From Streptomyces sp. NRRL S-337 (GTDB lineage: Bacteria > Actinomycetota > Actinomycetes > Streptomycetales > Streptomycetaceae), in the NCBI RefSeq assembly GCF_000720175.1, contig NZ_JOIX01000087.1, forward strand, positions 1 through 40,080: DNA of 40,080 nt, read 5' to 3'. Both the position numbers and the translations under genes were made by a program. Below the pieces are notes generated by a model that was not told where the DNA came from, searched no databases, and was given only the letters and a program-made list of their open reading frames with translations. This document shows positions 5,057 through 21,394 of this stretch, in pieces (the first letter of the stretch is position 1; the number at the start of each line of letters is the position of its first letter).

Positions 5057-6813
5057 ATGGCAAAGAACCGTCAGCCCAATGGGGCGTCGTCCATCTACCT
5101 CGGCAAGGACGGCCGCTGGCACGGCCGCGTCACCGTCGGAGTCAAGGACGACGGCACCCCCGACCGCCGACACGTCTCCCGCAAGACCCGAGCTGAGGCC
5201 ACCAAGGCCGTCCGCGAGCTGGAGCGGCAGCGCGACTCCACCGGAATCCGCAAGGCCGGCCAGACCTGGACCGTCACAACCTGGCTGACCCACTGGGTGG
5301 AGAACATCGCCGCACCCAACGTCGGCGAGAACACCATCGACGGCTACCGCGTGGCGGTCTACCACCACCTATACCCGGCCTGGGCGCCCACCGCCTGGAA
5401 AAGCTGGAGCCGGAGCACCTGGAGCGCTTCTACCAGAAGATGCGGGCCAACGGCAGCGCCGCCGGCACCGCCCACCAGGCGCACCGCACCGTCAACACGG
5501 CGCTCAACGAGGCCGTACGCCGCCGCCATCTCACCACCAACCCGGCCTCCATCGCCAAGTCTCCCAAGGTCGAAGAGGAGGAGGTCGAGCCGTACTCGCT
5601 GAAGGAGGTCCAGCGCCTCCTCGCCGAGGCCGCCAAGGTGCGCAACACCGCTCGCTGGGTCATCGCGCTCGCACTCGGCCTGCGTCAGGGCGAGGCGCTC
5701 GGCTTGAAGTGGGAGGACGTCGATTTCCAGGCGGGCGTGATCCTCGTCCGGCGCGGACGGCTGCGGCCCCGCTACAAGCACGGTTGCGGCAACCGCTGTG
5801 GGCGCAAGCCGGGTTACTGCCCACAGAAAATCAACACCCGGCGCGAGACGAAGGACACCAAGACTCGCGCCGGCAAGCGCCCGATCGGCGTGCCGGAGGA
5901 ACTGCTCAAGCTGCTACGACGGCACAAGGAGCAGCAAGAACGCGAGCGGGCCCTCGCCCGTGACCTGTGGGTGGAGAAGGGGTACGTCTTCACCTCGCCG
6001 ACCGGCGAACCGCTCAACCCCAACACCGACTTCCACAGGTGGAAGGACCTACTGAAGGCGGCGAAGGTTCGCGACGGCCGCCTGCACGCCGCCCGCCACA
6101 CTGCCGCGACCGTCCTGCTGATCCTCGGCGTCCCCGACGCGGTCGTCGACCGCATCATGGGCTGGGAGCCCGGCAAGTCCGCCCGCATGCGCCGCCGCTA
6201 CCAGCACCTCACTGGTCCCGTGCTTCAGCAGACGGCCGCGAAGATCGGCAGCTTGCTGTGGGGCACGAGGGCGCATGTGCTCGAACCGGTCCCAGGAGGT
6301 CCAGTGCCTGGCCTGAGTCAGGCATCTGTCCCGGCGGGGTCGACGGTGTACGTGGCTCTCCTCGGCGAGCGCCGTATCCCGTTCCTGCACCGCGAGCATG
6401 CGGACGGGGTGGCCTCGCAGTGGGGCGCCGACCATCCTGACCATGCTGCGGAGGTCGAGGAATGGGATCGAGAGAAGTGGGCGGACAAGGGTCCCGGCGG
6501 TATGCGGGCCATCCGCGACGGCGTGCCCGACCGCCGGATAGTCCACCACGCCCACGCCGTGTACCTGCCTGGCGGCGGGCGGCTCAACATCGGCCGTGAT
6601 GATCAATGGTCTGTGGTGGCCTGGGAGTTCGAGAGCGGCCTCTACACGGACTTGCCGGTTCGCTGGCACACCATGCGTCGTCCCGGTCAGGAGGTCGAGG
6701 CCCGCGTCCGTGGCACGGACAAAGAGGCCGTGGCCGTCGCTTTCGCTGAGGCTTGCGCACAGGCTGTGGACCGCGCGCGGCATCCCGGCAAGTACGGCGA
6801 CATGGGGGACTGA
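5057..6813 (+). pseudogene. int: Tyrosine site-specific integrase of element A, frameshifted, with C-terminal extension
   Basis: The N-terminal part (from ATG 5057) reads QPNGASSIYLGKDGRWHGRV and continues parallel to the element B integrase. At about 5374-5376 one C is missing from a C run relative to element B (CCC against CCCC). The next block (LGAHRLEKLEPEHLERFYQK in the restored frame) continues one frame over, to the stop at 6813. The catalytic domain has arginine in LGLRQGEALGL, the HxxR-type motif HAARH, W in MGWEPGKS, and the nucleophile tyrosine in RRRYQHLTG. A cysteine-rich insert (CGNRCGRKPGYC) is shared with element B. After the normal end (IGSLLWG) the frame continues for about 180 residues of unknown fold (STVYVALLGERRIPFLHREH, GVPDRRIVHHAHAVYLPGGG, VAVAFAEACAQAVDRARHPG). 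The fusion is unusual. If the frameshift is real, element A cannot make full-length integrase. Confidence 0.8.
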
Positions 6814-7087: not shown

Positions 7088-7822
7088 TCACTGGCGTTCC
7101 TCGATGGCGGCCACTTCAGCGGCCAGTTGTTTGTGCCCGAGGGCTGTTATCGCGCTGCGCAGGATCTTCAACAGGTCGCGGGCGTTGTCCTCGGTGAGCC
7201 TTTCTACGAGCGTGTGCAGGACCTTGGCGATGAGGATCCATCGGGATTCTGGATGCCACTGGTGAATCTGCTGGACCAGTTCTTCGGGGGCGAGACTGGG
7301 CGGAGGCCCTCCCAGCCGCGGGGAGGGTTGCAGCAGGGTGTACAGGCGAGCGGACGAAGGGTTCGCGAGGAGTTCGTCACGCAGGAACTCCATACGAGCG
7401 CGGGCCTGACGGCGCTCCAGCTCATCCAGTTCGAGCTCGTGCCGAGAGCGTTCTCTCCGGCGAGCGGCGGCGCTGACTCCCTCCTCGACCTGCAGTGAGG
7501 CAGTGGCGGCTACTACCTCCACTCCGTCGCGGCATAAAGGCAGTTCGTCTCGCAGTGCGACGACAAGGTCCTGTGCCGCGGCCTGAGGTCGGAGCACTGA
7601 TGCTCCGGACAGAGCCTCCTCGACGATCTTCCGGACAATGTGGCCCGCAATCTGAGGTGCGTCGCTGATAGCTGTCCCTGGTGGCGCGAGCCGCCAGGTG
7701 ACGCGGATATCCACCTCGAACGGCAGTCCCTCGTCGCGGCTGTCAGGGCGGTCGGCGAAGACGCAGGACCATATCGGTGCTGGGGATTCAGGTTCCCTGG
7801 CGCGGTTACGGCGCCACCTCAT
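7088..7822 (-). CDS. SPFH/band-7-like protein with long helical region, third gene of cassette
   Basis: This 244-residue protein overlaps the NTPase gene upstream by four bases (ATGA), so the two are probably coupled. Residues 30-110 have the alternating pattern of an SPFH/band-7-like domain (FEVDIRVTWRLAPPG, IAGHIVRKIVEEALS, AAAQDLVVALRDEL, GVEVVAATASLQVEEGVSAA). Residues 110-160 form a strongly charged helix or coiled coil (RERSRHELELDELERRQARA, RMEFLRDELLANPSSARLY). A helical C-terminus follows. No signal peptide or membrane segment is seen. SPFH proteins make ring- or cage-like oligomers and often partner with ATPases, which fits the neighbouring gene. The SPFH assignment is by pattern only and should be tested by structure prediction; the coding call itself is strong. 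Confidence 0.7.
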   Translation of the reverse strand: MRWRRNRAREPESPAPIWSCVFADRPDSRDEGLPFEVDIRVTWRLAPPGTAISDAPQIAGHIVRKIVEEALSGASVLRPQAAAQDLVVALRDELPLCRDGVEVVAATASLQVEEGVSAAARRRERSRHELELDELERRQARARMEFLRDELLANPSSARLYTLLQPSPRLGGPPPSLAPEELVQQIHQWHPESRWILIAKVLHTLVERLTEDNARDLLKILRSAITALGHKQLAAEVAAIEERQ

Positions 7823-10185
7823 ACCGGGTGGTCCGTAACGTCGGGGTCCGCCATGCTCTGTTGGAAAGATTCAAGAAGGCCGTCATCGAGCATCTGTGTC
7901 ACTTCGGTGTACACGGTGCTGTGGCTCGGGGCATGCGGGGGTACGTCAAATGCGGTGGTCAGCTCCTCGTCTTCGCCGGCTCGTGCCCATTCGCGGACGA
8001 TCGCACGCAGCCGGTCCCGTGGGCTCTCTACGGGCCGAGTCGTGATGTCTGTCTGGCCGTCGTCCGTGGTGTCCTTGACTGCGGCGCTGAGGATCGTGAG
8101 GACGCTGTCCTTGAGGTCCGGGTAGTGACGCACAGCGTCCAGCCAGAGACGGACCGCCAGCGCGTCCTCCCCGTCGCGTTCGAAGGTGTCATTTCCGTGC
8201 AAGACCGCCCGCCAGCCAGTGGTGAGGTCGGTTGCAGACGGCTTGAAGCCGCTCTCGCCATCGCTGGCCAGCAGCACCGGTAGAGCAGGGGAGGCCGGAT
8301 CCGTTGACACAGTCAGCGTCCTGAATGCCTTTTGCCCTGCTTCCAGGGTGTTCGCCTCCCCGCACCACGCCACGACGTACTCGAAGAGGGTGGGGCGGGC
8401 GGTGGGGTCGTGCCACAGCGTTTGCACGGCCCTTTGCAACGCCTGACGCACCTCGCGGTCCTCGGAGCCGGCCGCATGCCGCAGGCGTCGCAGGGCCTTT
8501 ACGGTGTACTGGAGTCCGAATTCTCCAGCACACACCTCCACGGCGGCGAGGCGCTGTGCGGCGGTGCCCGTCTTGGCCCATTGCAGGAGCATCTCGTGCA
8601 CGTAGGAGGCGCTCGCTGTATGAAGGCTGGCCGAAGTGAGCAGCTCGATGAGTGTGGGCCACAGTGGCTTGTCCTTCCAGCGCACCGCGAGGACACGCAG
8701 GGGATCCTGGCGGCGTTGGCGCACCGCCCAACGCACAGCGAAGCCGCCGATGCGCTGAGCCATGGCCTGCTGCTCCTGCGCGCTGAGGCTCTCCAGCGCT
8801 TCCCGCTTTTCCTTCAAAGGGGCCCCGGCCAGCCAGTCCAGGAACTTGGTTCGCGACAGCGGGCGGTCGATCCAGAAGTAGTCAAGTGCCGCGTCGTCCC
8901 AGTCAGGCCGGTTGAAGACGACCGTGTCATCCGGCTGCAGTTCGGCGTCGAGGGAGTCGACCATCTCGATGACTCCCGGCTCCCGCTGTCCTCTCAGCGA
9001 TAGATCTCCGTCCCCAAGTGCCTCGGACAGGTCTGCCGCGCCGGCGTAGAGATGGGCGACCGGGGCCCCACGAAGGGCGGAGCAGGACATCAGGAAGTTC
9101 CGCTGGAAGCTGGTGCGTTCGGGAGCTTTGTGCCATTCCAGAAGTTGACTGCGCCAGTTGCTGCGAGCGGCAAGCACGCTGAGCACCTGCCGGTCAAAGG
9201 GGGTGTCGGTGCCCCTTTTAAGCTTGTGCGCCAGAGACTTCAAATTGGGCAGCTTGGTGTCGTTGGCTCGGTGGGCGTCCAGGATGTAACCGACGATCTC
9301 CAGGACTTCCACTGGCGGTTGCCCCTCCAGCAGGGTCAGGATGTCCTCATCCCTCAGCCAGCGATCGACCGGGAGCTCCGGCGCTTCCGCATGCAGCCAC
9401 TTACGGGCGATCTCTATGGGCGGCGGTACGCCGAGCGAGGGCCGGATGCCTTCGGGAGCCCCGCTACCGATACGTCGCCACTGCTCGGGGGTGGTCAACA
9501 CGACTAGGCGTGCCTTACGGCGTGCTAGTTCGGCTTGGAGAGACTCAAGTAATGCACCGAACGTGTCGGATACCTTGAAGTCCTCTTCATCGGGCGGGAG
9601 CTCCATCACGTAGGCCCAATTCTCGGGCCGGGGCAGGCGGTGCACCGGGAACTCGGGGAAACCACCGTAATTGAGCTGACCGGCCCTCACGCCTGGGTAC
9701 TCGTGCCTCAGCTCAGCCAGCAGCGCGCGGCCCATAGTCGTGCGTCCCTTACCCGGACCTTCCGCGAGTACGGTGATAGACCCGGGATGTTTCCACGACT
9801 TATAGAGGTCGTCAAAGTCCACCCCGCCCGTGGGCCGGACGTACACCGCGCGAACGGCGGCCAGAAATGCGTCCGAGAACTCACCGTGGTCGAGCGGACT
9901 GTCGAAGCTGGCGTTGACCTTTACGGCGTTCATTTCGCCCAGGTTCAGCAATGCCAGCTGCCGTAATCGCGTTACCGCGTCGCTGTCCAGAATCGAACTC
10001 AGTCCCAGGGCGTCCAGTTCGTCTTTCCGGGGCTGGTCCGGGGGGCTCGGCACACCAGGGGCGACATCCGGTGGTGTAGGTGCATGCGGCGGTCCATAGA
10101 ACCCGCGCTCCTGCTGATTCGCTGTGCCGCTGTACTCGCCGTCGGGCCGTGGGCCCGTGCCATATCCCTGCTGTTCCTCTTGCAT
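7819..10185 (-). CDS. Large NTPase-like protein with atypical P-loop, second gene of cassette
   Basis: The start is ATG 10185 after a GGGGGGA RBS. The 788-residue protein has a disordered Gly/Pro-rich N-terminus (1-55). A P-loop-like site follows at residues 142-150 (EGPGKGRTT), where the canonical GxxxxGK(S/T) is replaced by ExxxxGRT, so the lysine is arginine and the first glycine is glutamate. Downstream strands WAYVMELPPDEED (about 190) and ARLVVLTTPEQW (about 240) are in the places expected for Walker B and sensor strands. The remaining 500 residues are mostly helical and repeat-like, resembling a solenoid (QDPLRVLAVRWKDKPLWPTL, YTVKALRRLRHAAGSEDREV). This architecture recalls STAND-like NTPases of bacterial conflict systems, many of which have degenerate P-loops. 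Function is not proven. Base composition appears less GC-rich than the element backbone, consistent with separate acquisition. Confidence 0.7.
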   Translation of the reverse strand: MQEEQQGYGTGPRPDGEYSGTANQQERGFYGPPHAPTPPDVAPGVPSPPDQPRKDELDALGLSSILDSDAVTRLRQLALLNLGEMNAVKVNASFDSPLDHGEFSDAFLAAVRAVYVRPTGGVDFDDLYKSWKHPGSITVLAEGPGKGRTTMGRALLAELRHEYPGVRAGQLNYGGFPEFPVHRLPRPENWAYVMELPPDEEDFKVSDTFGALLESLQAELARRKARLVVLTTPEQWRRIGSGAPEGIRPSLGVPPPIEIARKWLHAEAPELPVDRWLRDEDILTLLEGQPPVEVLEIVGYILDAHRANDTKLPNLKSLAHKLKRGTDTPFDRQVLSVLAARSNWRSQLLEWHKAPERTSFQRNFLMSCSALRGAPVAHLYAGAADLSEALGDGDLSLRGQREPGVIEMVDSLDAELQPDDTVVFNRPDWDDAALDYFWIDRPLSRTKFLDWLAGAPLKEKREALESLSAQEQQAMAQRIGGFAVRWAVRQRRQDPLRVLAVRWKDKPLWPTLIELLTSASLHTASASYVHEMLLQWAKTGTAAQRLAAVEVCAGEFGLQYTVKALRRLRHAAGSEDREVRQALQRAVQTLWHDPTARPTLFEYVVAWCGEANTLEAGQKAFRTLTVSTDPASPALPVLLASDGESGFKPSATDLTTGWRAVLHGNDTFERDGEDALAVRLWLDAVRHYPDLKDSVLTILSAAVKDTTDDGQTDITTRPVESPRDRLRAIVREWARAGEDEELTTAFDVPPHAPSHSTVYTEVTQMLDDGLLESFQQSMADPDVTDHPV

Positions 10186-10233
10186 CTTTATCCCCCCGAT
10201 GAGCTGGGACGCTCCCTGCCTGGCCTGATGTGC

Positions 10234-10767
10234 TTATCCGAGCGTGCCGTCGACTTCCAGCCCCGTGACCTCTCCGCCCCGATGCACAGTCTTGGTGCGC
10301 TGGTCAATGTCGACCGATGCCTTGTCGGTAACGTTCTGGGCTCTGACTGCCCGTGCCACGGCGTCCTGTTCGATCTCGTCCATACGCTGGACGACCCGTA
10401 CTCCGGCAGCGGGACGCTGCTCACCGACGAAAGTGAAGCGCTGTCCGTAGACGATTTCGAGGTCATCGCGTACCTGGCTCAGCGTCCGCACGAGGACGTC
10501 GTCCTCAAGTCGAATGAGGTCAGGATTGCGCCGATAGACGGCCATTTCCCGGGCGGCACCTTCCAGACGGCGGAGGCGCTCCTCGGTCAGCTCCTCTGGC
10601 CGCAGACGGAACGGTGTTGGAGCCGCGACAAGTGCCGGACAAGTGGGCTCCTGCTCCTGCGGCTGTGCGCGTCGATCAAGGGCAGCCCCCAGGCGGCCGA
10701 ACAAGAATCCGAATATTTGTGGCAGCGCGGAAGTGGCCACCGTTGCCAACGACAAAGGATCTGTCAT
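10234..10767 (-). CDS. Small membrane-associated protein, first gene of cassette
   Basis: The start is taken as ATG 10767 (MTDPLSLATVATSALPQIFG); an upstream in-frame ATG at 10803 lacks support. The 177-residue protein has an N-terminal hydrophobic stretch of about 20 residues (SLATVATSALPQIFGFLFGR) that may lie on or in the membrane. A Pro/Gln linker follows, then a helical region (TEERLRRLEGAAREMAVYRR, DDVLVRTLSQVRDDLEIVYG), and a C-terminus rich in beta strands (TFVGEQRPAAGVRVV, ALEVDGTLG-like ending). I recall similar proteins in Streptomyces next to SPFH-like and NTPase-like genes, but no named family. It is 48 bp upstream of the NTPase gene and probably leads the three-gene transcript. 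A role as anchor or sensor for the NTPase is inference. Confidence 0.6.
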   Translation of the reverse strand: MTDPLSLATVATSALPQIFGFLFGRLGAALDRRAQPQEQEPTCPALVAAPTPFRLRPEELTEERLRRLEGAAREMAVYRRNPDLIRLEDDVLVRTLSQVRDDLEIVYGQRFTFVGEQRPAAGVRVVQRMDEIEQDAVARAVRAQNVTDKASVDIDQRTKTVHRGGEVTGLEVDGTLG

Positions 10768-11424: not shown

Positions 11425-11477
11425 GGCGGAGGATACGAGATTCGAACTCGTGAGGGGTTGCCCCCAACACGCTTTCC
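11425..11477 (-). other. att site: 3' part of tRNA-Ser(GGA), junction of elements A and B
   Basis: On the minus strand these 53 bases read from the anticodon loop (GGAAAGCGTG) through the variable arm, the T arm (GAGTTCGAATCTC) and the acceptor end (TATCCTCCGCC). They are identical to 28261-28313. The plus-strand flank (AAGTCTGG) keeps a few more tRNA bases and then diverges, so the 5' half of the tRNA is absent. This is the shared boundary of the two tandem elements. Confidence 0.9.
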
Positions 11478-11593
11478 AAGTCTGGTGGTGCCGACAAGGG
11501 CCGTGTTCATCGGTGTCCAGCCCCGTTCACGCCCGGTCGGAGCGCCGGCGAAATCCGCAGGTCGCACGGTCTTGAACTCTGGCGTACGAAGGT

Positions 11594-11615
11594 GAATGAG
11601 ACGAAAACTGAGACG
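11594..11615. promoter_or_regulatory. Candidate integrase arm-type site pair, left end of element B
   Basis: GAATGAGACG (11594-11603) and AACTGAGACG (11606-11615) are repeated with a 12-bp period, 116 bp on the element B side of the att core. Together with 28190-28211 they would give an excised attP of element B one arm pair on each side of the core. Confidence 0.6.
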
Positions 11616-11659
11616 GGCTCGGACCAGCGCCCCATGCCTCATCAGACGGGCATAGCAGC

Positions 11660-11914
11660 TCAGTTGAGGAGTTCGGCCCGCTCTCGAACCCGGTCGTCCA
11701 GCTTCCCTCTCTCCAGGTCGTCAAGCGCGGCTGCGTAACCCGCCATAGCTGCCTCCTGAACAAGATCGTGTAGGTCGACCGGAATCGTCTCGAAGACCCC
11801 GGAGCAGATGTTCGCGGCTACGTCGTACGAAGGTTGGTAGTGCCGATCGCTGATGTCGGCGCCCAAGGCGCTGACGAGATCGCGTAACTCTTTCCTCTGG
11901 GCATCACTCATGTC
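11660..11914 (-). CDS. Small acidic protein of unknown function
   Basis: The start is taken as ATG 11914, preceded by GAGGCGGAC. It gives 84 residues (MSDAQRKELRDLVSALGADI and on to DDLERGKLDDRVRERAELLN) with good codon bias. It is predicted to be helical, acidic and cytoplasmic, with no recognisable domain. The frame stays open to ATG 12181, which would add about 89 basic, Pro/Arg-rich residues. That part has lower third-position GC, and its start overlaps the start of the divergent pentapeptide gene, so the short form is preferred. It is the first gene inside element B from the left att copy. Nothing in its neighbourhood suggests a function. Confidence 0.5.
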   Translation of the reverse strand, partial: DMSDAQRKELRDLVSALGADISDRHYQPSYDVAANICSGVFETIPVDLHDLVQEAAMAGYAAALDDLERGKLDDRVRERAELLN

Positions 11915-12179
11915 CGCCTCGATACCCTCCGGCCCTGGACGAGAACCGCTCTGCCTGCGCCTCGGCTTAGGGCCCTGATCTTGGGAGGCATCGTGCGTTT
12001 CGTGCCTTCTGCGGGGCTGTGCTGCGCGAACAGCGGCTGCTGGCGGATGAGCGTGATAGATGGCGAGAGGCGTGCTCAGGGCGACTACGTGGCGGGTACG
12101 GAAGGCTAGAGCCCACAAGTCTCCGGCGGGCCGGCAGACTTGTAGCAACCGGGTATGAACCTTGGGGCGTCCTCGGGGC

Positions 12180-13952
12180 ATGACTGTTCCTGGCACTCCC
12201 GTACCTTCGCCGGTACCGCCCGATTGGCCGCATTGCGCGCTCGGCGCCGACTCCGCAGATCCGGTCGGTTGCCGCGGGCGCCGGGTGGAGCCCTACACGA
12301 GGTGTCTAGCTCACCTGGCCGGGCCCGATCGCACGGCCTACCTGGCGAGTCTGGCGCCCGGCAACGACCTGGACCACCGCGGCACCGTCCTGACACCTGA
12401 ATTGCTCGATGGGCTCGTCAACAAGATTCGCGATCCCACGACGAATCGGCCACGCATGGGCGCCGTCGACTTCAGCGAGGCGACGTTCACCGGCGATGCT
12501 GGGTTCAAGAACGCGATTTTCACCAGCCGTGCTTGGTTTGACGGGGCTACGTTCGCCGGTGCCGCCTCGTTCAACAGGGTGACGTTCTCTGGCATCACTG
12601 GGTTCCGCAACGTGACATTCACCGGTCGAGCCGGGTTCGAGAACGTGATTTTTACCGATCGCGCATTGTTCGGCGGGGTGACGTTCTCTGGTGCCGCCTT
12701 GTTCAGCAGGGTGACGTTTTCCGGCGACGCGGAGTTCCGCATAGCGACCTTTGCCGGTCGAGCCGGGTTCGAGAACGTGATTTTCACCGAACGGACCTTC
12801 TTCGGCGGAGCGACGTTCGCTGGTGCCGCTCGGTTCTTCTCGGCGACGTTCGAGGCAGCACCGCAGCTGGGGCCGCTGGTCTGCAAAGAGGCGCTGGACC
12901 TCTCGGGGGCGGTGTTCAACGCTCCTGTGAGCATTGAGGCCGCCGCAGCGTACCTGGTCTGTCGGCGTACCCGGTGGGCCTCTACCGGGTCCCTACGTCT
13001 CCGCTATGCCACTGTGGACTTGAGCGATGCGGTTGTGGAGCATCCGCTGCGCGTCACCTCTCATTCGTCCGCTCCCATTGGTATTCGTGGGCGCGCCCTT
13101 GACGAGTCGCTGCTCACGGAACGGGACGCGGGTGTCCGGATCGTCTCGCTGAGCGGCATCGATGCGACTCATCTGGTCCTGACCGACATCGACCTTGCCG
13201 GCTGCCTGTTTACTGGCACCGTCCATCTCGACCAGCTCAATCTTGATGGCCGCTGCACCTTCGCTCGTGCCCCCGCCGGCTTTCACTGGCAAGGGCGCCG
13301 CCTGCTCCGCTGGACGCCACGTCGCACGCTTGCCGAGGAACACCACTGGCGTGCCGCCCGGGGAGCGGCCGGATGGATGGCTGAACCTGACGGTGCGGAA
13401 TCCGCGGGTCCGGAGGTGCTAGCGACCGTGTACCGCCAGCTGCGCAAATCCCTTGAAGACGGCAAGAATGAGCCGGATGCGGCGGACTTTTACTACGGCG
13501 AGATGGAGATGCGCCGCCACGACCAGGATCGTCCCTGGGCTGAGCGGGCCCTGCTCGCGGTGTACTGGGCCGCCTCCGGCTACGGGCTGCGCGCCTCCCG
13601 CGCCATCGGGTGGCTACTGGCCGCGATGACTATCACGCTGCTGGCCCTGATGTTGTGGGGCCTACCGAAAGACGGCCCGAAGCCTGAGAGCACCGGGCAA
13701 CTCACTGGCCAGCGCATCACGCTGACCACCGACACTCCCGACCTGGATAACCCCGACGGTCCGCTACCTGAGCGCATCACGAGCGAGCGGTTCGATAAGG
13801 CCCTTCGGATCGTTATCGACTCCGTGGTATTCCGCTCCTCTGGCCAGGGACTAACCAACGCCGGTGCCTACACCGAGATGGCTTCTCGCATTACCGAGCC
13901 GGTCCTGCTTGGCCTCGTCGTCCTCGCCGTCCGTGGCCGTGTCAAGCGATAA
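12180..13952 (+). CDS. Pentapeptide-repeat membrane protein
   Basis: From ATG 12180 the protein has 590 residues. The N-terminus (about 1-95) holds the pattern WPHCALGADSADPVGCRG, CLAHLAGPDRTAYLASLAPG and DLDHRGT, which I recall as common to Streptomyces pentapeptide proteins. Residues about 95-215 contain degenerate pentapeptide repeats (ATFTGDAGFKNAIF, VTFSGITGFRNVTF, ATFAGRAGFENVIF and similar) that would fold as a right-handed quadrilateral beta-helix. After a second, weaker repeat region comes a predicted transmembrane segment (AIGWLLAAMTITLLALMLWG, about 480-500), an extracellular loop, and a final hydrophobic stretch (EPVLLGLVVLAVRG). Such proteins resemble bacterial pentapeptide/ion-channel-associated proteins, but no pore motif is seen. 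The function is unknown; as cargo of element B it may protect or mark the host membrane. Confidence 0.8.
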   Translation: MTVPGTPVPSPVPPDWPHCALGADSADPVGCRGRRVEPYTRCLAHLAGPDRTAYLASLAPGNDLDHRGTVLTPELLDGLVNKIRDPTTNRPRMGAVDFSEATFTGDAGFKNAIFTSRAWFDGATFAGAASFNRVTFSGITGFRNVTFTGRAGFENVIFTDRALFGGVTFSGAALFSRVTFSGDAEFRIATFAGRAGFENVIFTERTFFGGATFAGAARFFSATFEAAPQLGPLVCKEALDLSGAVFNAPVSIEAAAAYLVCRRTRWASTGSLRLRYATVDLSDAVVEHPLRVTSHSSAPIGIRGRALDESLLTERDAGVRIVSLSGIDATHLVLTDIDLAGCLFTGTVHLDQLNLDGRCTFARAPAGFHWQGRRLLRWTPRRTLAEEHHWRAARGAAGWMAEPDGAESAGPEVLATVYRQLRKSLEDGKNEPDAADFYYGEMEMRRHDQDRPWAERALLAVYWAASGYGLRASRAIGWLLAAMTITLLALMLWGLPKDGPKPESTGQLTGQRITLTTDTPDLDNPDGPLPERITSERFDKALRIVIDSVVFRSSGQGLTNAGAYTEMASRITEPVLLGLVVLAVRGRVKR

Positions 13953-14168
13953 GCAGTGATGGCCCTTCCAGCGAAGTCGCCAACTAGGTATCTCAGAATT
14001 GCCAACCATGGCGCACAGTCAAATCAGTGATTGCAATTAATGCGGTTTAGGGACCATTCCCTGCCGTGTCTGACCCGCGCCGTAAGTGGATTAATCCCCT
14101 GCAGCAGGGGGATGCCTCCAGTCCCAAAGGTTTGGCGAGTGCACCTTCCATACAACTTAGGGGCGGAT

Positions 14169-14618
14169 ATGCAGTGGACAGCAGTTGTGGCGACGGCTGT
14201 GGGTACGGTCCTTGGCGTGGTCAGCACGCTTGTTGCCGACCGTGTCCGGTGGCGCCGAGAGAGATCGGAGAGGGACCGCGACGCGCTACGCACCTCATTC
14301 ATGGAATACCTGGGCGCCCTCGCTCAAGCCCGTGACGCCTTCACTCGGGCTGAGCCTTCCCAGGTTCGTATCGGTAGGGGCCACATCGCGGTCAGCGAGT
14401 ACGGCGTGTATACCGCGCAGCACCAACTGGAGTTGGTTGCGCCGCAGCTGGTCCTTGACAGGGCCCGCCAAGCCACCCTCGCGGTGCTCGACTTCCATGA
14501 TGCCGTGGTTGCCGGTCACGACGCGGGCTCGGACGAGTATCTAATAGCGTGGCGAGCTGTAGGTGAGGCCCGCAGCAGGTTGGTTGAGGCTATGCAGACA
14601 GCTCTGAGGCGTTACTGA
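14169..14618 (+). CDS. Small membrane-anchored protein of unknown function
   Basis: The 149-residue protein starts at ATG 14169 after GGGCGG. Residues 1-22 form a single transmembrane or signal-anchor segment (MQWTAVVATAVGTVLGVVST), followed by a positively charged stretch (RVRWRRERSERDRD) that places the rest in the cytoplasm. The remainder is helical (LRTSFMEYLGALAQARDAFT, VVAGHDAGSDEYLIAWRAVG, EARSRLVEAMQTALRRY). I recall similar short anchored proteins in Streptomyces genomes without a known function. The gene stands alone between the pentapeptide gene and the convergent GntR gene; a short palindrome (TCCCCTGCAGCAGGGGGA, about 14093-14112) lies upstream. Confidence 0.7.
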   Translation: MQWTAVVATAVGTVLGVVSTLVADRVRWRRERSERDRDALRTSFMEYLGALAQARDAFTRAEPSQVRIGRGHIAVSEYGVYTAQHQLELVAPQLVLDRARQATLAVLDFHDAVVAGHDAGSDEYLIAWRAVGEARSRLVEAMQTALRRY

Positions 14619-14713
14619 GGGAGCAATTTGGCCGTCTGCTGTTCCCATGCGAGCCCGTACGTCCCTGATTCGGTTTCGCGGGCGGGAGTCATATTCTCGC
14701 CTTAGTCGTCTGA

Positions 14714-15472
14714 TCACTTGTCGTCGATCGGGATCTCGTAGACGATCTCGCACAGAGAGGCGGGGACAATGATGTCTGCCGTCTCCACGGGCCGACCCTG
14801 GTCGCTGTAGTAAGTCCGCCGAATGTGCGTGACCAGGCTGGCCTTCTGGATGCCGAGGAGCGACGCCTCCTCGGCGTTTGCTTGCCGCGGCTCCGGCTGC
14901 TCCACAGCGTGGCTGACCGTGATGCCGATCTCGGCCATGCGGTTCACCACCCCTACACCGGCGTGCGGCCCACCCTCCGGGAGGACGACGAGCGTGCCGC
15001 CCGTGAGGTCGTACGGTTCCCAGCTCGTCGACAACTGCACCGGCTTGCCGTCGGCGAGGAACTCGTACACGGTGCGGACGCACAGGCCGCCCTCGTCGAT
15101 ACCGAGGCGCGAGGCAATCTCAGCCGGTGCCGGCACCTTCGCCTCGGTCCGGCTTTCCCAATCTCCCTGCTTGCCCACGGCCTTCATGTCCGCGCGGAAC
15201 GGGGAGCCGTCAGGCTGCTCGCGTGCCGACGAGCGGACCACGCGTACGCGCTGACGAGGAGCGGCGACGTACGTGCCGGAGCCGGCGCGACCTTCCAGCA
15301 CTCCCTGGGAGATCAGCAGCTCCTGAGCCCGACGAACCACGTTCTCCCCGACGCCGCACTCCTGCCCGATCTGGGCTCGTGACGGGAGTCGGTCTCCCGG
15401 CGCCCACTCATGCTCCGCGATCCGTCGCCGTAGTTCGTCAGCGATGCGGAGGTACGGCGGCTGCTCAGGCAT
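14714..15472 (-). CDS. GntR-family regulator with UTRA domain
   Basis: The 252-residue protein has an N-terminal winged helix (residues 5-70: YLRIADELRRRIAEHEWAPG, DRLPSRAQIGQECGVGENVV, ELLISQGVLEGRAGSGTYV). A UTRA-type ligand-binding domain follows (residues about 95-250: VRTVYEFLADGKPVQLSTSW, ASLLGIQKASLVTHIRRTYY, PVETADIIVPASLCEIVYEI). GntR/UTRA regulators of the KorA/TraR group control transfer genes on Streptomyces plasmids and AICEs; others sense metabolites. It is transcribed away from the six-gene operon at 15552-17506. The interval between them contains two CTAGnnnnCTAG palindromes just upstream of its ATG, so autoregulation together with repression of the divergent operon is the likely mode. 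The ligand is unknown. Confidence 0.85.
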   Translation of the reverse strand: MPEQPPYLRIADELRRRIAEHEWAPGDRLPSRAQIGQECGVGENVVRRAQELLISQGVLEGRAGSGTYVAAPRQRVRVVRSSAREQPDGSPFRADMKAVGKQGDWESRTEAKVPAPAEIASRLGIDEGGLCVRTVYEFLADGKPVQLSTSWEPYDLTGGTLVVLPEGGPHAGVGVVNRMAEIGITVSHAVEQPEPRQANAEEASLLGIQKASLVTHIRRTYYSDQGRPVETADIIVPASLCEIVYEIPIDDK

Positions 15473-15481
15473 ATGGAAAAT

Positions 15482-15512
15482 CTAGTCCACTAGCTCTAAT
15501 CTAGTTAACTAG
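15482..15512. promoter_or_regulatory. Paired palindromic operators for the divergent GntR regulator
   Basis: CTAGTCCACTAG (15482-15493) and CTAGTTAACTAG (15501-15512; the second is a perfect palindrome) lie 19 bp apart, with CTCTAAT between. They begin 10 bp upstream of the GntR ATG and 40 bp before the start of the divergent operon. Position and symmetry fit a dimeric GntR regulator bound on both sites. Confidence 0.75.
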
Positions 15513-15551
15513 CTTTACTCCAAGTGATCGCCCGACGACGGAGGCTGCTCT

Positions 15552-15830
15552 GTGCCTGCTGCGGAAGCAAGAGCCGAAGGCATCGCAGCCCGGTTGTCCG
15601 CCGTCGGACTCACCCCGCGCGTGGAACAGCACGCCCGACACACGTCGATCGAAGCGGAGGTACCGGAATCGCTCGCCGCCGAGTCGTGGCGGGAGCTCTT
15701 GGAAGCCGTGGCAGAGGCCGATCGATTCGGGCTTCTCGCCAACAGCTTGAACGGCCGCACCTTATGGGCGGCCGTACGCACAGCGGCCCCCGCGACGGGC
15801 GATGTCCGGGGGCCTGGCCATCAGCGATAG
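15552..15830 (+). CDS. Small hypothetical protein, first gene of GntR-linked operon
   Basis: GTG 15552 follows GGAGG at 15540-15544. The 92-residue product (PAAEARAEGIAARLSAVGLT, VEQHARHTSIEAEVPESLAA, SWRELLEAVAEADRFGLLAN) looks like a small alpha/beta protein ending in a Pro/Gly tail. It is cytoplasmic, with no signal peptide. It starts just after the CTAG operators and is followed within 12 bp by the next gene. I recall conserved short proteins of this type beside GntR regulators in Streptomyces; no function has been assigned that I know. Confidence 0.65.
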   Translation: MPAAEARAEGIAARLSAVGLTPRVEQHARHTSIEAEVPESLAAESWRELLEAVAEADRFGLLANSLNGRTLWAAVRTAAPATGDVRGPGHQR

Positions 15831-15842
15831 GAGCTGATCAGC

Positions 15843-15995
15843 GTGTTCAACCGTATCTGCCACACCGTCTCGCAGACCGATGAGAGGCCCGCCATGCTGG
15901 GCCGGCGCCACCATTCCCCGAGGCCCGTCCAGCCGGCGGCCGCCCCTCGTGATCGCCTTGCGCTCCACTGGCACGCGACGGCGGAGGCTCTCTGA
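15843..15995 (+). CDS. Very small hypothetical protein (50 residues)
   Basis: GTG 15843 has AGGAG 10 bases upstream and opens a 50-codon frame (FNRICHTVSQTDERPAMLGR and on to LALHWHATAEAL) that ends exactly at the start of the next gene (TGATG). The spacing and overlap, rather than any domain, support it as a gene. The product is basic and histidine-rich with no recognisable motif. It was too short for an automatic ORF cut-off, so it would be easy to miss. Confidence 0.5.
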   Translation: MFNRICHTVSQTDERPAMLGRRHHSPRPVQPAAAPRDRLALHWHATAEAL

Positions 15996-16198
15996 TGCCT
16001 CCTCGTAAGCGGCTCGGCGTGACCCACACGAAGGCCGTTACCTACCAGTCCAGTTCTTGCCGCATGGGTACGCACTGCGAGTGCGCGCATTCCTCTCCTG
16101 CGATTGCCCCGATCGGCATCCCCGTGGTCTATGAGGCGTGCAACTGCTCCTGCCACACAGCGGCCGCCCGCGCTGACCGAACGGATGGCCTTCAGTGA
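15995..16198 (+). CDS. Small cysteine-rich protein
   Basis: The ATG at 15995 shares its A with the preceding stop codon. The 67-residue product has five cysteines (SCRMGTHCECAHS and ACNCSCH). This is a pattern that could bind zinc or another metal, though no classical finger spacing is seen. The gene ends by overlapping the next start by four bases (GTGA). The tight overlaps place it in the middle of the six-gene operon. Function unknown. Confidence 0.55.
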   Translation: MPPRKRLGVTHTKAVTYQSSSCRMGTHCECAHSSPAIAPIGIPVVYEACNCSCHTAAARADRTDGLQ

Positions 16199-16422
16199 GG
16201 GGCCGGACACCAAATGGTGCGGCGGTCGCCGCCCCCATCGAGATCACATCTGCCAGCGTGCAGCGCGGCGACGTCATCCAGATCGGCGGTTGCCCGTGCC
16301 GCGTCACCGACTTGCTCCAGCTTCCCGGCGGAGCGAAGCGCCTGTGGTTCGAGTCGGGCGAACTTCTCACCATGCACTCCCGGACTCGGCTCGTAGCCCT
16401 ACGAACGCTGAGAAGGTGGTGA
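16195..16422 (+). CDS. Small hypothetical beta-rich protein
   Basis: GTG 16195 overlaps the previous stop. The 75-residue product contains the sequence GDVIQIGGCPCRVTDLLQLP then GGAKRLWFESGELLTMH. This is a beta-hairpin-rich pattern, similar to short Streptomyces proteins I recall beside regulators of this kind. The stop TGA (16420-16422) shares its A with the ATG of the GntR gene. Function unknown; it is likely to be cytoplasmic. Confidence 0.6.
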   Translation: MRGRTPNGAAVAAPIEITSASVQRGDVIQIGGCPCRVTDLLQLPGGAKRLWFESGELLTMHSRTRLVALRTLRRW

Positions 16423-17162
16423 TGCGGTCCGTGCCCTCTCTCCGCCACACCATCGCCGATGACATCCGAAACAAGATCTCGACCGGCCGGTTCAAGGCCG
16501 GCGAACGTCTCCCCTCCGAGGCACAGCTAGCTTCCAACTACAAGGTCAGCACAGCGACGCTGCGAAGCGCCCTTGCGGTCCTCCACGGTGAGGGGCTCGT
16601 CGAGAAGATCCACGGCAAGGGCAACTTCATCCGCTATCCCCTCCGCCGAATCACCTACGTCGGGGGCGGTCTGACACCCAGGACGGAGCCCTCGGCTGAG
16701 TCGGCGTTATGCGTCAGCATCCGCGCCACCAACCTCCAGGCGCACGGTCAACTGATCGGCCTGCTAGGGGTGTCGGCAAGTAGCCCCCTGACCGAATTCC
16801 ACTGCCTCAGTCACCAGGGGAACGCAGTGCACAGCCTCGCCCGCATCTACGTACCCCGCGACCTATCGCCGACTGACGTTCCCGCCGAATCGCACTCCTA
16901 CGAGGGCGTTGAGGCAAAGCTGGCAAAACTCCGCCCACCACTGGCCGAGGTCCGGGAGCGAATCAGCGCTCGCCCTCCGACACAGGAGGAAACGACGACC
17001 CTTCGAATCAGCTCGGCCCTGGCAGTGCTCGCGATCACGCGAGTGGCGTCCGACCACACGGGACGCGTGGTCGAGGCCGCGCACCTGGTGCTCCCCGGCG
17101 ACCGCGCCGACGCACTCTTCACCACCCACTACATGCCCCACCAGAGGACGAGCGGACAATGA
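16422..17162 (+). CDS. GntR-family regulator with UTRA-like domain
   Basis: ATG 16422 (MRSVPSLRHTIADDIRNKIS) overlaps the preceding stop by one base. The 246-residue protein carries a winged-helix domain at about residues 5-70 (GRFKAGERLPSEAQLASNYK, VSTATLRSALAVLHGEGLVE, KIHGKGNFIRYP). An UTRA-like effector domain follows (LTEFHCLSHQGNAVHSLARI, LRISSALAVLAITRVASDHT, GRVVEAAHLVLPGDRADALF). It is the second GntR regulator of this locus, encoded inside the operon that the first one probably controls. Whether the two share operators or ligands cannot be told from sequence. Confidence 0.85.
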   Translation: MRSVPSLRHTIADDIRNKISTGRFKAGERLPSEAQLASNYKVSTATLRSALAVLHGEGLVEKIHGKGNFIRYPLRRITYVGGGLTPRTEPSAESALCVSIRATNLQAHGQLIGLLGVSASSPLTEFHCLSHQGNAVHSLARIYVPRDLSPTDVPAESHSYEGVEAKLAKLRPPLAEVRERISARPPTQEETTTLRISSALAVLAITRVASDHTGRVVEAAHLVLPGDRADALFTTHYMPHQRTSGQ

Positions 17163-17506
17163 CGCCCCACAACGAGCTGCGACTCCTCCCGTGGTCAGGC
17201 CCCGACGGCAGGCCCTGCTTCTTGAGCACCGATGACCGCGGCGGCTTTCTCGCCCGCCTGGCTGACAACACCGAGGAGTTGCAGCTGGACATCGCAGCCG
17301 AGCTCGGAGAGCACGCGCTCGAAGTGCTCAGTGACAGGGAGGACTGGCCCAACGAGCTACGGCTGCTGGTGATGGACATGGCTGGTGCGTTGCGTGACGT
17401 ACGTCGCGTAGCGATCAGCCGCGGTCACCGCCTCCCGCCCACAGTTCCTCCCGAGTGCGAGGCGGGCGACGAAGGCCCTCAGCTGCCGGCGGCATCCTTC
17501 GGCTAG
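17159..17506 (+). CDS. Small hypothetical protein, last gene of GntR-linked operon
   Basis: The ATG overlaps the GntR stop by four bases (ATGA). The 115-residue product (ELRLLPWSGPDGRPCFLSTD, DRGGFLARLADNTEELQLDI, LRLLVMDMAGALRDVRRVAI) is an acidic alpha/beta protein without membrane segments. It resembles Streptomyces hypothetical proteins that I recall next to GntR regulators. A strong hairpin (17521-17563) follows 14 bases after its stop and should end the operon. Confidence 0.7.
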   Translation: MTPHNELRLLPWSGPDGRPCFLSTDDRGGFLARLADNTEELQLDIAAELGEHALEVLSDREDWPNELRLLVMDMAGALRDVRRVAISRGHRLPPTVPPECEAGDEGPQLPAASFG

Positions 17507-17520
17507 CAGCGCCAAAGCGA

Positions 17521-17563
17521 ACGGTAGGGGAGCCCCATACTGAATCTGGGGCTCCTCTACCGT
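17521..17563. terminator. Strong bidirectional hairpin
   Basis: ACGGTAG plus GGAGCCCCA on the left pair with TGGGGCTCC and CTACCGT on the right, around TACTGAATC, with short bulges. It ends the six-gene operon. The rest of the 17507-17819 gap holds no convincing gene. Confidence 0.8.
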
Positions 17564-17708
17564 TTGATTAGACCCGCCGGGGCTCACTCAGTTCAATCAC
17601 CAGCTCCGCGCCATGGAGACACCTGGGACCTCCGACTGTAGTCCTGGGATTGCTCGAGGGCGGGACTCTATATTCCTGTTGATTTCAGGAAATCTTCCGC
17701 AGTCAGCA

Positions 17709-17738
17709 ATTGTTGACCGCGTAAAAGTGGTCAACAAT
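17709..17738. repeat. Inverted repeat ATTGTTGACC / GGTCAACAAT
   Basis: Perfect 10-bp arms surround a 10-base AT-containing loop (GCGTAAAAGT). It lies about 80 bases past the stop of the low-GC oxidoreductase gene, in DNA of similarly low GC. It may be a terminator without a T-run or an operator left from the donor DNA. Confidence 0.6.
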
Positions 17739-17819
17739 GCCGAGGTTACGACCGGCCCAGCTGCACGAAGACTCGCGCCGGGAGAGATCGGCAGCGTGTT
17801 GGGCGGCGCTTGGATGTGA

Positions 17820-19574
17820 TTACTTCATCTTCTCCAGTATTCGATGTCGCATGTAGGCCACACTTGTGGGGTCCGCAAGAACGCTGCGATGCCGGTGTTT
17901 TTCGTTAAGATATCGATCCATTGAGGCAACGGCTGCCACTCCTTGTCCAACTGCTTGCCCGACGCGCCCCAATGCGGCGACGCGAACGTCCCCTGCCGCG
18001 AACACTCCCGGTAGATTAGTTTCAAAGGTATAAGGTTTCCGTCGCAATCGACGGATACCGCGAGGGTACCGTGTAAGCTGGGAGAGACGCTTCAATGGAG
18101 ATGATACGGAGAGCATTCGAGGTAGATGGCCGTACTCCAAGTAAACATCTGTCTTGACACTTTCTTCCTCGCTCAATTCGACCTTCTCCTCACTCTCGCG
18201 AAGCCACTTTGTATTCGATTCGCCGCCAATCAAGATGTAGGCCGAGGATGCGGCAAGGGTTGTAGGTGCTTCAGCGCTCTCCCTGTCTCTAACCTTCACA
18301 CCCGTTAGGTGCTCTACGCCCAGGAAACCTGATACCTCATGATGTGGAAGAACATTGACTTTATGCCTCACTTCCCGCGCCAGCGGTTTCGCCATAGTGA
18401 GCCCAAAGGGTGTAACGATGGTGACGGATGCGCTACCCCTCTTTGCGAGGAGAAGGGCGACCTGTCCCGCAGAATCTCCGCCTCCAACGATGACGACGTG
18501 ATTGCCCGGATCGCGGTGGCAGATCTGAGCGCCGTAATAAATCCCTCGATTAAGTAGACCTGTCTCGATTCGGCGCTCCTCTGACGGAAGCGGCAAGCGC
18601 AGTTCTACCTTTCCACATGCCAGAAGAACCATACCTGCCGAAATGAATTCCTCGACAGTGTCACCCACCTGAATTCGATATCTACCACGATCCTCTTTCA
18701 TGAGCTTTCGGGCCGTCATTGTGGGGCGCCAGTCGATATCGAGATCCCTCATTTGCTGTAGTGCCAGCTTGGCGAGATTGGTGCCACTAATTCCGCCAGG
18801 GAATCCGAGGTAGTTCTCGATTAGGTTAATCGATGTAGCAGCTGTTCCACCAGGTCGTTTACTTTCGATCACTAGTGGCCGAAGTCCGTAATTGACGCTC
18901 GCGCTCAGCGCTGCGGACAAGCCGGCCGGACCTCCCCCCACAATTACGAGGTCGTATGGATAGTCTAGCGGCCGCTGCGGTTCCGGGATCATTCCCAGTG
19001 CGGTGTAGATTTCTCCAGGGCTAGGCGGGAAGGGCCCCGGGAATAGGTGCCCTTGTATACGCACTTCAACTTCCGTGGAGTTTGATTCGCCATCCCATCT
19101 GTAAGGTATTCCGTTAAGATAGAGGAAGTGTCGAAATGCTCGCTCTTCGTGACCCTCTTTAGGGCCGTGAATCTCCAAAAGTGGATCGGTCGGATTCCAG
19201 GCGAAGAATAGCTCTTCGAGGGCCAATTCGAGCACTTCTGGGGCCTCGTTGAATTCAAATATATCCTTGTCGAGGGCATTGTTTTCCTTGCATGTCAAGA
19301 TGGCCAATGCTGTACCAGGGGCGTTGGGTCTGAGCCCTAGGAGGAATTCCCTCACATTGAATTCGCATCCCTCGTGAGCTACTACGGCAGCCAAGCGCTC
19401 GCTAATATCCTTCTTACTGGTGATCCAGTCATAGGCTTCTCTGTCGTTAGCTGCAGGGAGTATCTCGAGGCTGCTGTCACACCAGACGTTCATATCGCTG
19501 GTGAGGTCTCGTCGAGTCTCGGCGTCGTGGTGAACGAGCAGGACGACTGGCCTACTAGTGTCGGAGTGAGTCAT
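17820..19574 (-). CDS. Degenerate receiver domain fused to thioredoxin-reductase-like flavoprotein, lower GC
   Basis: ATG 19574 follows GAGGTG; an upstream GTG/ATG at 19619 lacks an RBS. The 584-residue protein begins with a receiver-like domain (RPVVLLVHHDAETRRDLTSD), but the expected phosphoacceptor strand reads AAVVAHEGCEF with no aspartate. From about residue 210 comes a two-domain flavoprotein: FAD site VIVGGGPAGLSAALSAS, then NLIENYLGFPGGISG, then NAD(P) site VVIVGGGDSAGQVALLLAKR, and the closing LPGVFAAGDVR. The order matches fused response regulator/thioredoxin-disulfide reductases, but the CxxC redox pair is missing (GIYYGAQICHRDPG instead). It therefore probably oxidises NAD(P)H without reducing thioredoxin. 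Base composition is clearly lower in GC than the neighbours, with many A/T-ending codons, so it was acquired from a different host. Physiological role unknown. Confidence 0.8.
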   Translation of the reverse strand: MTHSDTSRPVVLLVHHDAETRRDLTSDMNVWCDSSLEILPAANDREAYDWITSKKDISERLAAVVAHEGCEFNVREFLLGLRPNAPGTALAILTCKENNALDKDIFEFNEAPEVLELALEELFFAWNPTDPLLEIHGPKEGHEERAFRHFLYLNGIPYRWDGESNSTEVEVRIQGHLFPGPFPPSPGEIYTALGMIPEPQRPLDYPYDLVIVGGGPAGLSAALSASVNYGLRPLVIESKRPGGTAATSINLIENYLGFPGGISGTNLAKLALQQMRDLDIDWRPTMTARKLMKEDRGRYRIQVGDTVEEFISAGMVLLACGKVELRLPLPSEERRIETGLLNRGIYYGAQICHRDPGNHVVIVGGGDSAGQVALLLAKRGSASVTIVTPFGLTMAKPLAREVRHKVNVLPHHEVSGFLGVEHLTGVKVRDRESAEAPTTLAASSAYILIGGESNTKWLRESEEKVELSEEESVKTDVYLEYGHLPRMLSVSSPLKRLSQLTRYPRGIRRLRRKPYTFETNLPGVFAAGDVRVAALGRVGQAVGQGVAAVASMDRYLNEKHRHRSVLADPTSVAYMRHRILEKMK

Positions 19575-19738
19575 CAGGCACCTCGGTGGTCCAACGCGTT
19601 CGTGGTTGCTGCCACTCACTTCCTAATGCCATCGTTACTCCACTGGCACCCTTGCGCCACTGGGGAGGATGGCGGTAGCTACAAGGGAAGTTGACTTGGC
19701 GACTGACTGTGTGAGAAAGGCTGACGTAATCTGCGTGA

Positions 19739-19906
19739 GGTCGGCGGAGCGGCTTTGGGCTGGAGCTGCTTTGGGGCGAGTGATCATGGCCCCGTAAGCT
19801 GATGGCGCGTCGGGCAGTCTGTGGACCTGCCCGGTAAAGCACGACGTTGGGGCCATGATCTTAGAGGCTCGCCCCAAAGTGGCTGCCTAAAGCCGTGGAG
19901 CCGACC
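19739..19906. repeat. Long imperfect inverted repeat with nested hairpin
   Basis: The left arm 19739-19793 and right arm 19849-19906 are inverted copies. They share GGTCGGC, CGGCTTT, CTTTGGGGCGAG and ATCATGGCCCC in the same order, with small insertions. The 55-bp loop contains another hairpin (CGGGCA 19811-19816 / TGCCCG 19828-19833). No gene is seen between 19575 and 20076. The layout could be the remnant of a small transposon, a single-strand replication origin, or a protein-binding cruciform. Confidence 0.7.
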
Positions 19907-19958
19907 GCCCCAGCCACGACGTACCCCTTCTCTGACATCAGGCGGCTGATTGCTCGGT

Positions 19959-20033
19959 GCGCGGCACGGGCGCCGGCCGGGCTGGAGCGGGGCGGAGACA
20001 GGAGCGCAGGCCCGGCCGGGGGTCGTGCCGCGC
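19959..20033. repeat. GC-rich inverted repeat with 24-bp arms
   Basis: GCGCGGCACG (19959-19968) pairs with CGTGCCGCGC (20024-20033), and GCCGGCCGGGC with GCCCGGCCGG inside it. The loop of about 27 bases is purine-rich. It lies 43 bp beyond the stop of the Nudix gene, so it could serve as its terminator, or form part of the element B origin or transfer region together with 19739-19906. Confidence 0.65.
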
Positions 20034-20076
20034 GCGGCGAGCGTGAGCGAGCCGCCTTGATGAAGTAGGGAAAGTT

Positions 20077-20532
20077 CTATCGCACCGGCGTCAGGCGCTT
20101 GCCGTCATGGCTTCGTACGTGAGGGCCTGCTCCGTCCAGGGCGTCCAGGAATCGGATCGAGTAGACCTCGGACATGGACCCCGCCACCTCGTCTGGCGTG
20201 AGCCAGGTGACTGCCGTCGACTCGCTGGAGGTTCGTTCCTCGCCGCCGACCGGCTTGCAGCGGAAGACCAGGGCGACGATGCCTCGCGTCGTGTTCTTGT
20301 AGACCCCGGTGAGCTCGTCGACCTCGACGTGGATGCCCGTCTCTTCCCAGACCTCGCGCCGTACGCCGGCCTCCGGGGTTTCGTTGAGTTCGAGTACTCC
20401 GCCCGGGAGCTCCCAAGCGCCGTTGTCGGCCCGCCGGATCGTGAGGAGCTTGCCGTCCTCGCGGACCACGACCCCGGCCACGGACACGGAGTGCAGTGGC
20501 GTTGACTGGGCTTTCGCGGCGCTGTTACTCAT
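20077..20532 (-). CDS. pif: Nudix hydrolase, Pif-like (pSAM2 immunity factor)
   Basis: ATG 20532 (MSNSAAKAQS) is preferred over 20544. The 151-residue protein has a complete Nudix box at residues 45-67, matching GX5EX7REUXEEXGU with E51, R59-E60, E63-E64 and G66. Nudix enzymes cleave nucleoside diphosphates linked to another group. In pSAM2 the Nudix-motif protein Pif prevents redundant transfer between cells that already carry the element, and it sits next to korSA. The same pairing is seen here: the gene is divergent from the KorSA-like regulator, and its start codon lies inside the operator at 20527-20541. The Pif role is therefore inferred from context; the substrate is unknown. Confidence 0.8.
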   Translation of the reverse strand: MSNSAAKAQSTPLHSVSVAGVVVREDGKLLTIRRADNGAWELPGGVLELNETPEAGVRREVWEETGIHVEVDELTGVYKNTTRGIVALVFRCKPVGGEERTSSESTAVTWLTPDEVAGSMSEVYSIRFLDALDGAGPHVRSHDGKRLTPVR

Positions 20533-20541: not shown

Positions 20542-20562
20542 CATAGGAGGATGGGAAGAGCT

Positions 20563-21391: not shown

Positions 21392-21394
21392 TTG

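Follow-up and report, generated by a model that had tools for sequence, protein, structure and literature searches.

According to the available sections of PMC7889193 and PMC8086366, the fungal HET-S/NWD2 pair joins a small executor, whose C-terminus holds two pseudo-repeats of ~21 residues, to a NOD-like receptor (NLR) that carries one related copy at its N-terminus. In the BASS/Bell systems, found mainly in actinobacteria and cyanobacteria, the available sections of PMC7889193 describe a motif common to the effector C-terminus and the NLR N-terminus, with small helical effectors that have a hydrophobic segment and also TIR effectors. The vWA-MoxR-VMAP ternary systems (Kaur et al. 2020, PMC7159879) are actinobacterial and NTPase-based and, in the sections available, carry Band-7, cyclic nucleotide monophosphate (cNMP) cyclase and HEAT modules in effector positions. 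Here, we describe a four-gene cassette (genes H, N, S and T) of Streptomyces sp. NRRL S-337, located in a 40,080-bp stretch of DNA (contig NZ_JOIX01000087.1, positions 1 to 40,080; hereafter the window), in which a small protein with C-terminal pseudo-repeats (H) is followed by an NLR-like NTPase (N), an SPFH-like protein (S) and a tiny fourth protein (T). As read from sequence, this layout suggests an undescribed cell-alarm system, and we give a slightly better than even chance to the reading that the cassette is an NLR-type signalosome with N as sensor-switch, H as executor and S as scaffold. No description of a conflict cassette combining an SPFH protein with an NTPase was found in the literature searched, with subscription papers and preprints outside its coverage.

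The cassette genes were as follows, with H, N and S taken from the open reading frame (ORF) list and its translations:
10234-10767, minus strand: gene H, 177 residues
7819-10185, minus strand: gene N, 788 residues
7088-7822, minus strand: gene S, 244 residues
6915-7091, minus strand: gene T, 58 residues, with a GTG start at 7091 and a stop at 6915

The initial annotation had presented H, N and S as three compact minus-strand ORFs, and their coordinates, the 48-bp gap between H and N and the 4-bp overlap between N and S were all confirmed; it had overlooked the fourth cassette gene, T, which overlaps S by 4 bp. H, N and S matched no significant family in Pfam, PADLOC and NCBIfam (E ≤ 1) or in PHROGs (E ≤ 0.1), sequence searches of the PDB with N, S and H profiles gave no convincing match, and T matched no Pfam family at E ≤ 0.01. 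Because the gene set is kept in related genomes, chance ORFs were ruled out and the cassette was considered more than a chance arrangement.

Searching proteins with N gave 57 sequences, N itself among them, and those in named records were all actinobacterial (Streptomyces, Amycolatopsis, Labedaea and Micromonospora). Scanning genome contigs with N identified 31 loci in Streptomyces, Kitasatospora, Embleya, Amycolatopsis, Nonomuraea, Labedaea, Micromonospora and Umezawaea; gene calls at these loci come from an in-house program based on codon usage, which gives approximate start positions. S lay directly after N in all 31 loci (tblastn), including one (L030) in which S was a 29-residue fragment, N was also truncated and H was absent. 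H was next to N in 28 loci by tblastn and in two more by profile, such that the effector-NLR adjacency by which amyloid-NLR systems are recognised was found in 30/31 loci. Two of these, the Nonomuraea loci L012 and L024, were divergent: profile labels put H on the strand opposite to that of N and S, and one extra called ORF separated H from N in L012. T was detected by profile in 20 of the 31 loci and was missing or undetected in, for example, those of Amycolatopsis, Nonomuraea, Labedaea, Micromonospora and Umezawaea.

Within the window's genus, N was present at E ≤ 1e-10 in 16 of 199 genomes, eight of them with at least 42% identity (the window's own genome included) and eight with 26–31%. 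Six of the eight distant genomes kept H, N and S according to profiles, although their N was just 27–31% identical, one had N and S and one had N alone; in the two without H by profile, different upstream effectors were present instead. In the distant-type loci L052, L053, L054 and L056, the T gene was upstream of H and not downstream of S. Phylum-wide, the N profile matched at least 6 of 296 genomes, again counting the window's own, and this count is a lower bound because few candidates were scored per genome. A survey of neighbourhood conservation, as proposed in the initial annotation, found H, N and S together in other actinobacterial genomes. One genome held the distant-type cassette twice (L041 and L049), ~140 kb from each end of its linear chromosome and with equal match scores.

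From its N-terminus, N comprised a disordered region, one motif copy (~73-92, discussed below), a P-loop region (~97-343) and a helical solenoid extending to the C-terminus. Consecutive helices ran through the C-terminal half of the predicted structure, in agreement with the solenoid-like C-terminus noted initially, and HEAT_2 gave a sub-threshold Pfam match (E 0.016). The EGPGKGRTT string given in the initial annotation was found in its translation; the P-loop reads GKGRTT, and Arg148 occupies the position of the Walker A lysine. This site was Arg in 34 of 35 N relatives and Gln in the other one, and across a wider superfamily set it was Arg in 44 of 47 members and Lys in three (two of the 47 P-loops were read by eye, the pattern having missed them). 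E200 was conserved in 35/35 relatives and D199 in 32/35, and by their position this acidic pair may be Walker B-like. Loss of the Walker A lysine throughout the family makes nucleotide hydrolysis by N doubtful, and assignment as a canonical ATPase was rejected. Structure comparison returned AAA+-like matches, Foldseek placed NACHT and STAND structures among weak matches (none at E ≤ 1e-3), and a Pfam scan matched no protease domain. From its predicted structure, N appears to be AAA+/STAND-like and to end in a helical solenoid.

S consisted of an SPFH domain (~16-113), a long charged helix (114-153) and C-terminal helices. All 15 Foldseek matches at E ≤ 1e-3 were SPFH-family or vault chains, with HflK/C, stomatin, the MVP vault and flotillin giving the best structural matches. 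The predicted structure of S has the SPFH fold, which bears out the SPFH-like domain with a charged helix described initially. S did not match the Band_7 Pfam model at E ≤ 1, its profile found no SPFH match among PDB sequences, and no N-terminal membrane segment was seen. The initial annotation had named two results that would speak against its proposal, namely a lack of co-occurrence in other genomes and a lack of NTPase or SPFH folds, and neither was seen. In L014, L025 and L028, the charged helix of S was far longer and contained RE/RQE-rich repeat units.

H contained an N-terminal hydrophobic segment (~5-23), a helical middle and two C-terminal pseudo-repeats of ~21 residues each (~VRVVQ..RAVRA and ~VDIDQ..LEVDG), which matched each other at E 2.1e-6 (hhalign; 0/100 column shuffles were as good). 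The hydrophobic N-terminus previously ascribed to H was present but only moderate, with a best 19-residue Kyte-Doolittle mean of 1.54 in this H; a mean of 1.6 was reached by 6 of 36 family members. T carried the motif LRW.L.P.TS..A.R...AAWRLAR..HPDE.

N belongs to a larger superfamily, for which a profile built from nine distant NTPases (cut-off E ≤ 1e-8) matched 102 of the 150 genomes scanned within the genus. The window's own genome had a second member on contig C63 (L073), in an operon of CRP-like, cyclase-like, NTPase, SPFH-like, PycTM-like and vWA-like genes. The superfamily set comprised 40 regions and seven earlier loci, i.e. 47 NTPase loci (L074, a weak match with no NTPase gene, was left out), and a gene was present directly upstream on the same strand in 47/47 and directly downstream in 46/47. 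These sister operons typically followed the order effector, NTPase, SPFH-like protein, and the effector could be a TIR, cyclase-like or small helical protein. By eye, the commonest arrangement was CRP-like regulator, cyclase-like, NTPase, SPFH-like, two-helix membrane and vWA-like proteins, and the second was XRE-like regulator, TIR, NTPase and a membrane-anchored SPFH-like protein. A scan of 121 neighbour proteins (47 upstream, 45 of the 46 downstream and 29 of 40 second downstream) gave Pfam matches to PycTM (18), TIR_2 (9) and DUF4407 (7) and none to Band_7, and one of these proteins matched the PADLOC PycC model (E 5.1e-4).

The S profile matched three groups of downstream proteins, namely those from L125/L050 (E 9.4e-10), from TIR-type operons (E 7.2e-7) and from cyclase-PycTM operons (E 2.3e-5). 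It gave a weak match to that of L150 (E 2e-4) and no clear match to the DUF4407 type (E 0.0048) or to a group labelled 'cyc_other' (E 0.025), which itself matched the PycTM-type group at E 1.2e-50. Seven control comparisons with unrelated neighbour proteins scored E 0.07 or worse, and the groups compared leave out L051, L129, L134, L135 and L141 (5/47). In L125, a variant of the cassette, N, S and a T relative accompany a small effector of another kind; the T profile matched the L125/L050 genes at E 2.4e-10.

In sister operons, a short motif at the C-terminal end of the upstream protein was matched in the NTPase segment preceding the P-loop, and it differed between operons. This motif was GGVFGG.NHGIGGGTFHGD in L150, NNTG..IQ[IV]GRDN in L129, PQGPVH.G.G in the TIR type and GA.FGFG in L122-L124. 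The short helical upstream proteins of L125 and L129 ended in a motif common to their own NTPase; L135 had a CRP-like protein upstream and no motif, and L076 had no clear match. Motif sharing was assessed with 12 NTPase clusters (45% identity), using one representative of each and the best ungapped score. Mean scores were 59.2 within loci and 27.9 between loci (P ≤ 5e-5), and the control regions gave P = 0.86 (upstream N-terminus), 0.62 (downstream N-terminus) and 0.24 (NTPase C-terminus). After low-complexity masking, means were 37.7 within and 20.9 between (P ≤ 5e-5; controls P = 0.84, 0.16 and 0.89), or 41.1 and 22.4 with other representatives (P ≤ 5e-5), and a protein's own partner scored best in 6 of 12 clusters (8 of 12 with other representatives). 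Masking hid the glycine-rich motif of L122 and L150, and in L111 and L130 the best unmasked segments consisted of low-complexity sequence.

In the window family, two motif copies of ~21 residues were present in H and one in N. The H C-terminal profile aligned to the part of N that immediately precedes the P-loop domain (V.Q..d.V.G..tGv with lrQ.Al.N.GeM.gvK) with a score of 18.9, whereas none of 60 column shuffles scored above 11.7, and the H N-terminal profile did not match N (E 0.48). Taken singly, both H repeats aligned to one common set of N columns (E 7.8e-4 and 0.0029; 0/100 shuffles each), and the string GEQVG occurred in both H and N of L017. In the locus-by-locus comparison, scores exceeded those of their own shuffles in 12 of 16 clusters. 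As described in the available sections on HET-S/NWD2, a small executor adjoins an NLR-like protein, with two repeats in the former and one in the latter, and H and N share this arrangement. The likeness is one of layout and no sequence relation is claimed; N lacks a Pfam NACHT match, and the fungal pair as described in those sections has no SPFH or T partner.

The superfamily resembled BASS/Bell systems, as described in the sections cited, in that the effector C-terminus and the adjoining NTPase N-terminus carry a common motif and that small helical effectors with a hydrophobic segment occur as well as TIR effectors. It differed in that the cassette NTPase is missed by the Pfam NB-ARC and NACHT models, carries Arg where the Walker A Lys is expected and precedes an SPFH-like gene; BASS motifs (original paper, Dyrka et al. 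2020) were compared by description. Sister operons resembled Pycsar through their PycTM-matching (18/121) and cyclase-like proteins, with the difference that their cyclase-like and PycTM genes are separated by genes for an NTPase and an SPFH-like protein. Pycsar membership of the cassette itself was rejected, since H, N and S gave no cyclase or nucleotide-activated effector match. The predicted SPFH fold of S recalls HflK/C-FtsH and vault, stomatin and flotillin assemblies; unlike HflK/C-FtsH, the cassette has no protease domain match in N and no N-terminal membrane segment or Band_7 match in S. Membership in the vWA-MoxR-VMAP systems was also rejected, as H, N and S had no vWA or MoxR Pfam match at E ≤ 1 (no VMAP model was looked up by name). 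A vWA-like gene was third downstream in some sister operons (by eye), and none was present in the window cassette.

The cassette is cargo of mobile elements. In the window, it lies between an integrase and an att-like repeat, as the initial annotation had proposed, and a second, pSAM2-like element occupies the interval between two att-like copies (11425-28313):
5057-6813, plus strand: tyrosine integrase of the element that carries the cassette (5440-6813 matches Phage_integrase, E 4.6e-20)
11425-11479, no strand: att-like repeat, with identical 53-55 bp copies at 28261-28313 and at 11406-11460 of contig C88
21841-23196: FtsK-like gene of the pSAM2-like element
24818-26194: RepSA of the pSAM2-like element
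26411-27655: integrase of the pSAM2-like element, which also carries three GntR-UTRA regulators

The cassette's integrase was split between different frames (N-terminal part 5057-5602, catalytic part 5440-6813), reflecting decay or sequencing error. Contig C88 belongs to the same genome. By eye, the att-like repeat resembles the 3' end of a tRNA-Ser gene, and ARAGORN called no tRNA. A pentapeptide-repeat protein with 9 Pentapeptide_3 copies was encoded just past the repeat (12285-13952). By sequence clustering, mobile-element genes were near at least 10 of the 31 loci, six with a relative of the window integrases and four with a Tn7-like transposase set (rve, TniB and TniQ matches), and L010, L013, L053 and L060 had similar neighbours (integrase, helix-turn-helix (HTH), DUF2637). 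Among the matches listed from PADLOC on 200 of 217 chosen neighbours, TniQ was matched by at least three proteins, GajA models by at least two, and ThsB and SduA by at least one each.

The NLR-type reading is supported because the genes co-occur, S has a predicted SPFH fold, N is AAA+-like, sister operons exchange TIR and PycTM-type proteins, and effector and NTPase carry a common motif. These results partly support the initial proposal of an anchor or sensor, an NTPase switch and an oligomeric effector; it is more likely that the SPFH protein S is the scaffold and the small H the executor. The resulting signalosome with an SPFH partner is carried by mobile elements, possibly amyloid and probably defensive. 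In this model, N would rest in an inactive state and sense a trigger through its helical solenoid. Activated N would oligomerise, and its conserved Arg P-loop would probably permit nucleotide binding with little or no hydrolysis, locking the assembly in its bound form. The clustered N motifs, matched to H by profile, may then template the H pseudo-repeats into a beta-rich, possibly amyloid, assembly. Clustered H would insert its hydrophobic N-terminus into the membrane, stopping or killing the infected compartment. S, having no membrane segment of its own, could serve as an oligomeric platform that places N and H at the membrane, and tiny T, often overlapping S translationally, may be an accessory subunit or regulator.

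Several observations weigh against this model. N had no Pfam NB-ARC/NACHT match at E ≤ 1, H, N and S had no PADLOC match, and the N-terminal segment of H is only moderately hydrophobic. Within the window family (36 loci), motif specificity was weak: means over 16 clusters were 26.4 within and 23.7 between (P = 0.011), 14 and 9 clusters gave P = 0.042 and 0.018, the own partner was best in just 3/16, 2/14 and 5/9, and several best segments lay outside the motif. The hhalign probabilities of the H repeats against N were also low (24.9 and 10.7 percent), H did not match the small effectors of sister operons (hhalign, best E 0.12), and the scattered PADLOC matches among neighbours lack a control set and hence do not measure defence enrichment. 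The commonness of the superfamily could also fit a housekeeping role.

That commonness (102/150 genomes) favours an alternative that we regard as unlikely, namely a regulatory or developmental membrane-microdomain complex in which a flotillin-like SPFH platform works with an NTPase chaperone and a signalling superfamily of the chromosome gave rise to the mobile copies. Directly upstream there are often a CRP-like regulator and a cyclase-like protein, which could indicate cyclic AMP-type signalling. Against this, the window-type cassette is patchy (16/199 genomes), integrases or Tn7-like genes are linked to it in 10/31 loci, and TIR proteins stand in for the cyclase-like ones in sister operons. 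We consider it more improbable still that the cassette is a membrane-acting maintenance or exclusion module of its mobile element, serving addiction or preventing entry of related elements. Such a module would agree with the place of the cassette as cargo between an integrase and att, where two elements lie in tandem, and with the like neighbours (integrase, HTH and DUF2637) in L010, L013, L053 and L060. However, the carriers are unrelated (integrase-type and Tn7-like) and many loci had no recognised mobile gene inside the fetched flanks, which argues that the cassette is not bound to one transfer system.

A separate question concerns the motif shared by H and N, which might be an ordinary folded docking element, i.e. 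a co-assembled beta-structure in a stoichiometric complex, and not an amyloid-type template. Conservation of the motif over the window family, without locus specificity, is as expected for a docking interface. The sister operons, however, had fast-diversifying motif pairs, RHIM-like IQIG/IQVG cores and glycine-rich repeats, features that the available sections of PMC7889193 and PMC8086366 describe for bacterial amyloid signalling motifs. We view simple docking as rather unlikely, if the least so of these alternatives.

The favoured NLR-type signalosome may belong to a much larger group. We tentatively propose, at somewhat short of an even chance, that actinobacteria possess a large unnamed class of NLR-like receptors with an Arg P-loop, locked by nucleotide binding and always accompanied by an SPFH platform. 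Their executors would be interchangeable (TIR, PycTM/cyclase-like or small membrane-acting proteins) and matched through fast-evolving amyloid motif pairs, and the window cassette would represent a mobile, HET-S-like branch. If true, this would add a widespread receptor class missed by family-based defence finders, as the cassette has no PADLOC, NCBIfam or significant Pfam match, and would tie SPFH membrane platforms to NLR-type signalling. HET-S/NWD2 would also gain a bacterial counterpart, and a cassette of four genes would allow direct tests of templating, of membrane attack and of whether ATP hydrolysis is needed.

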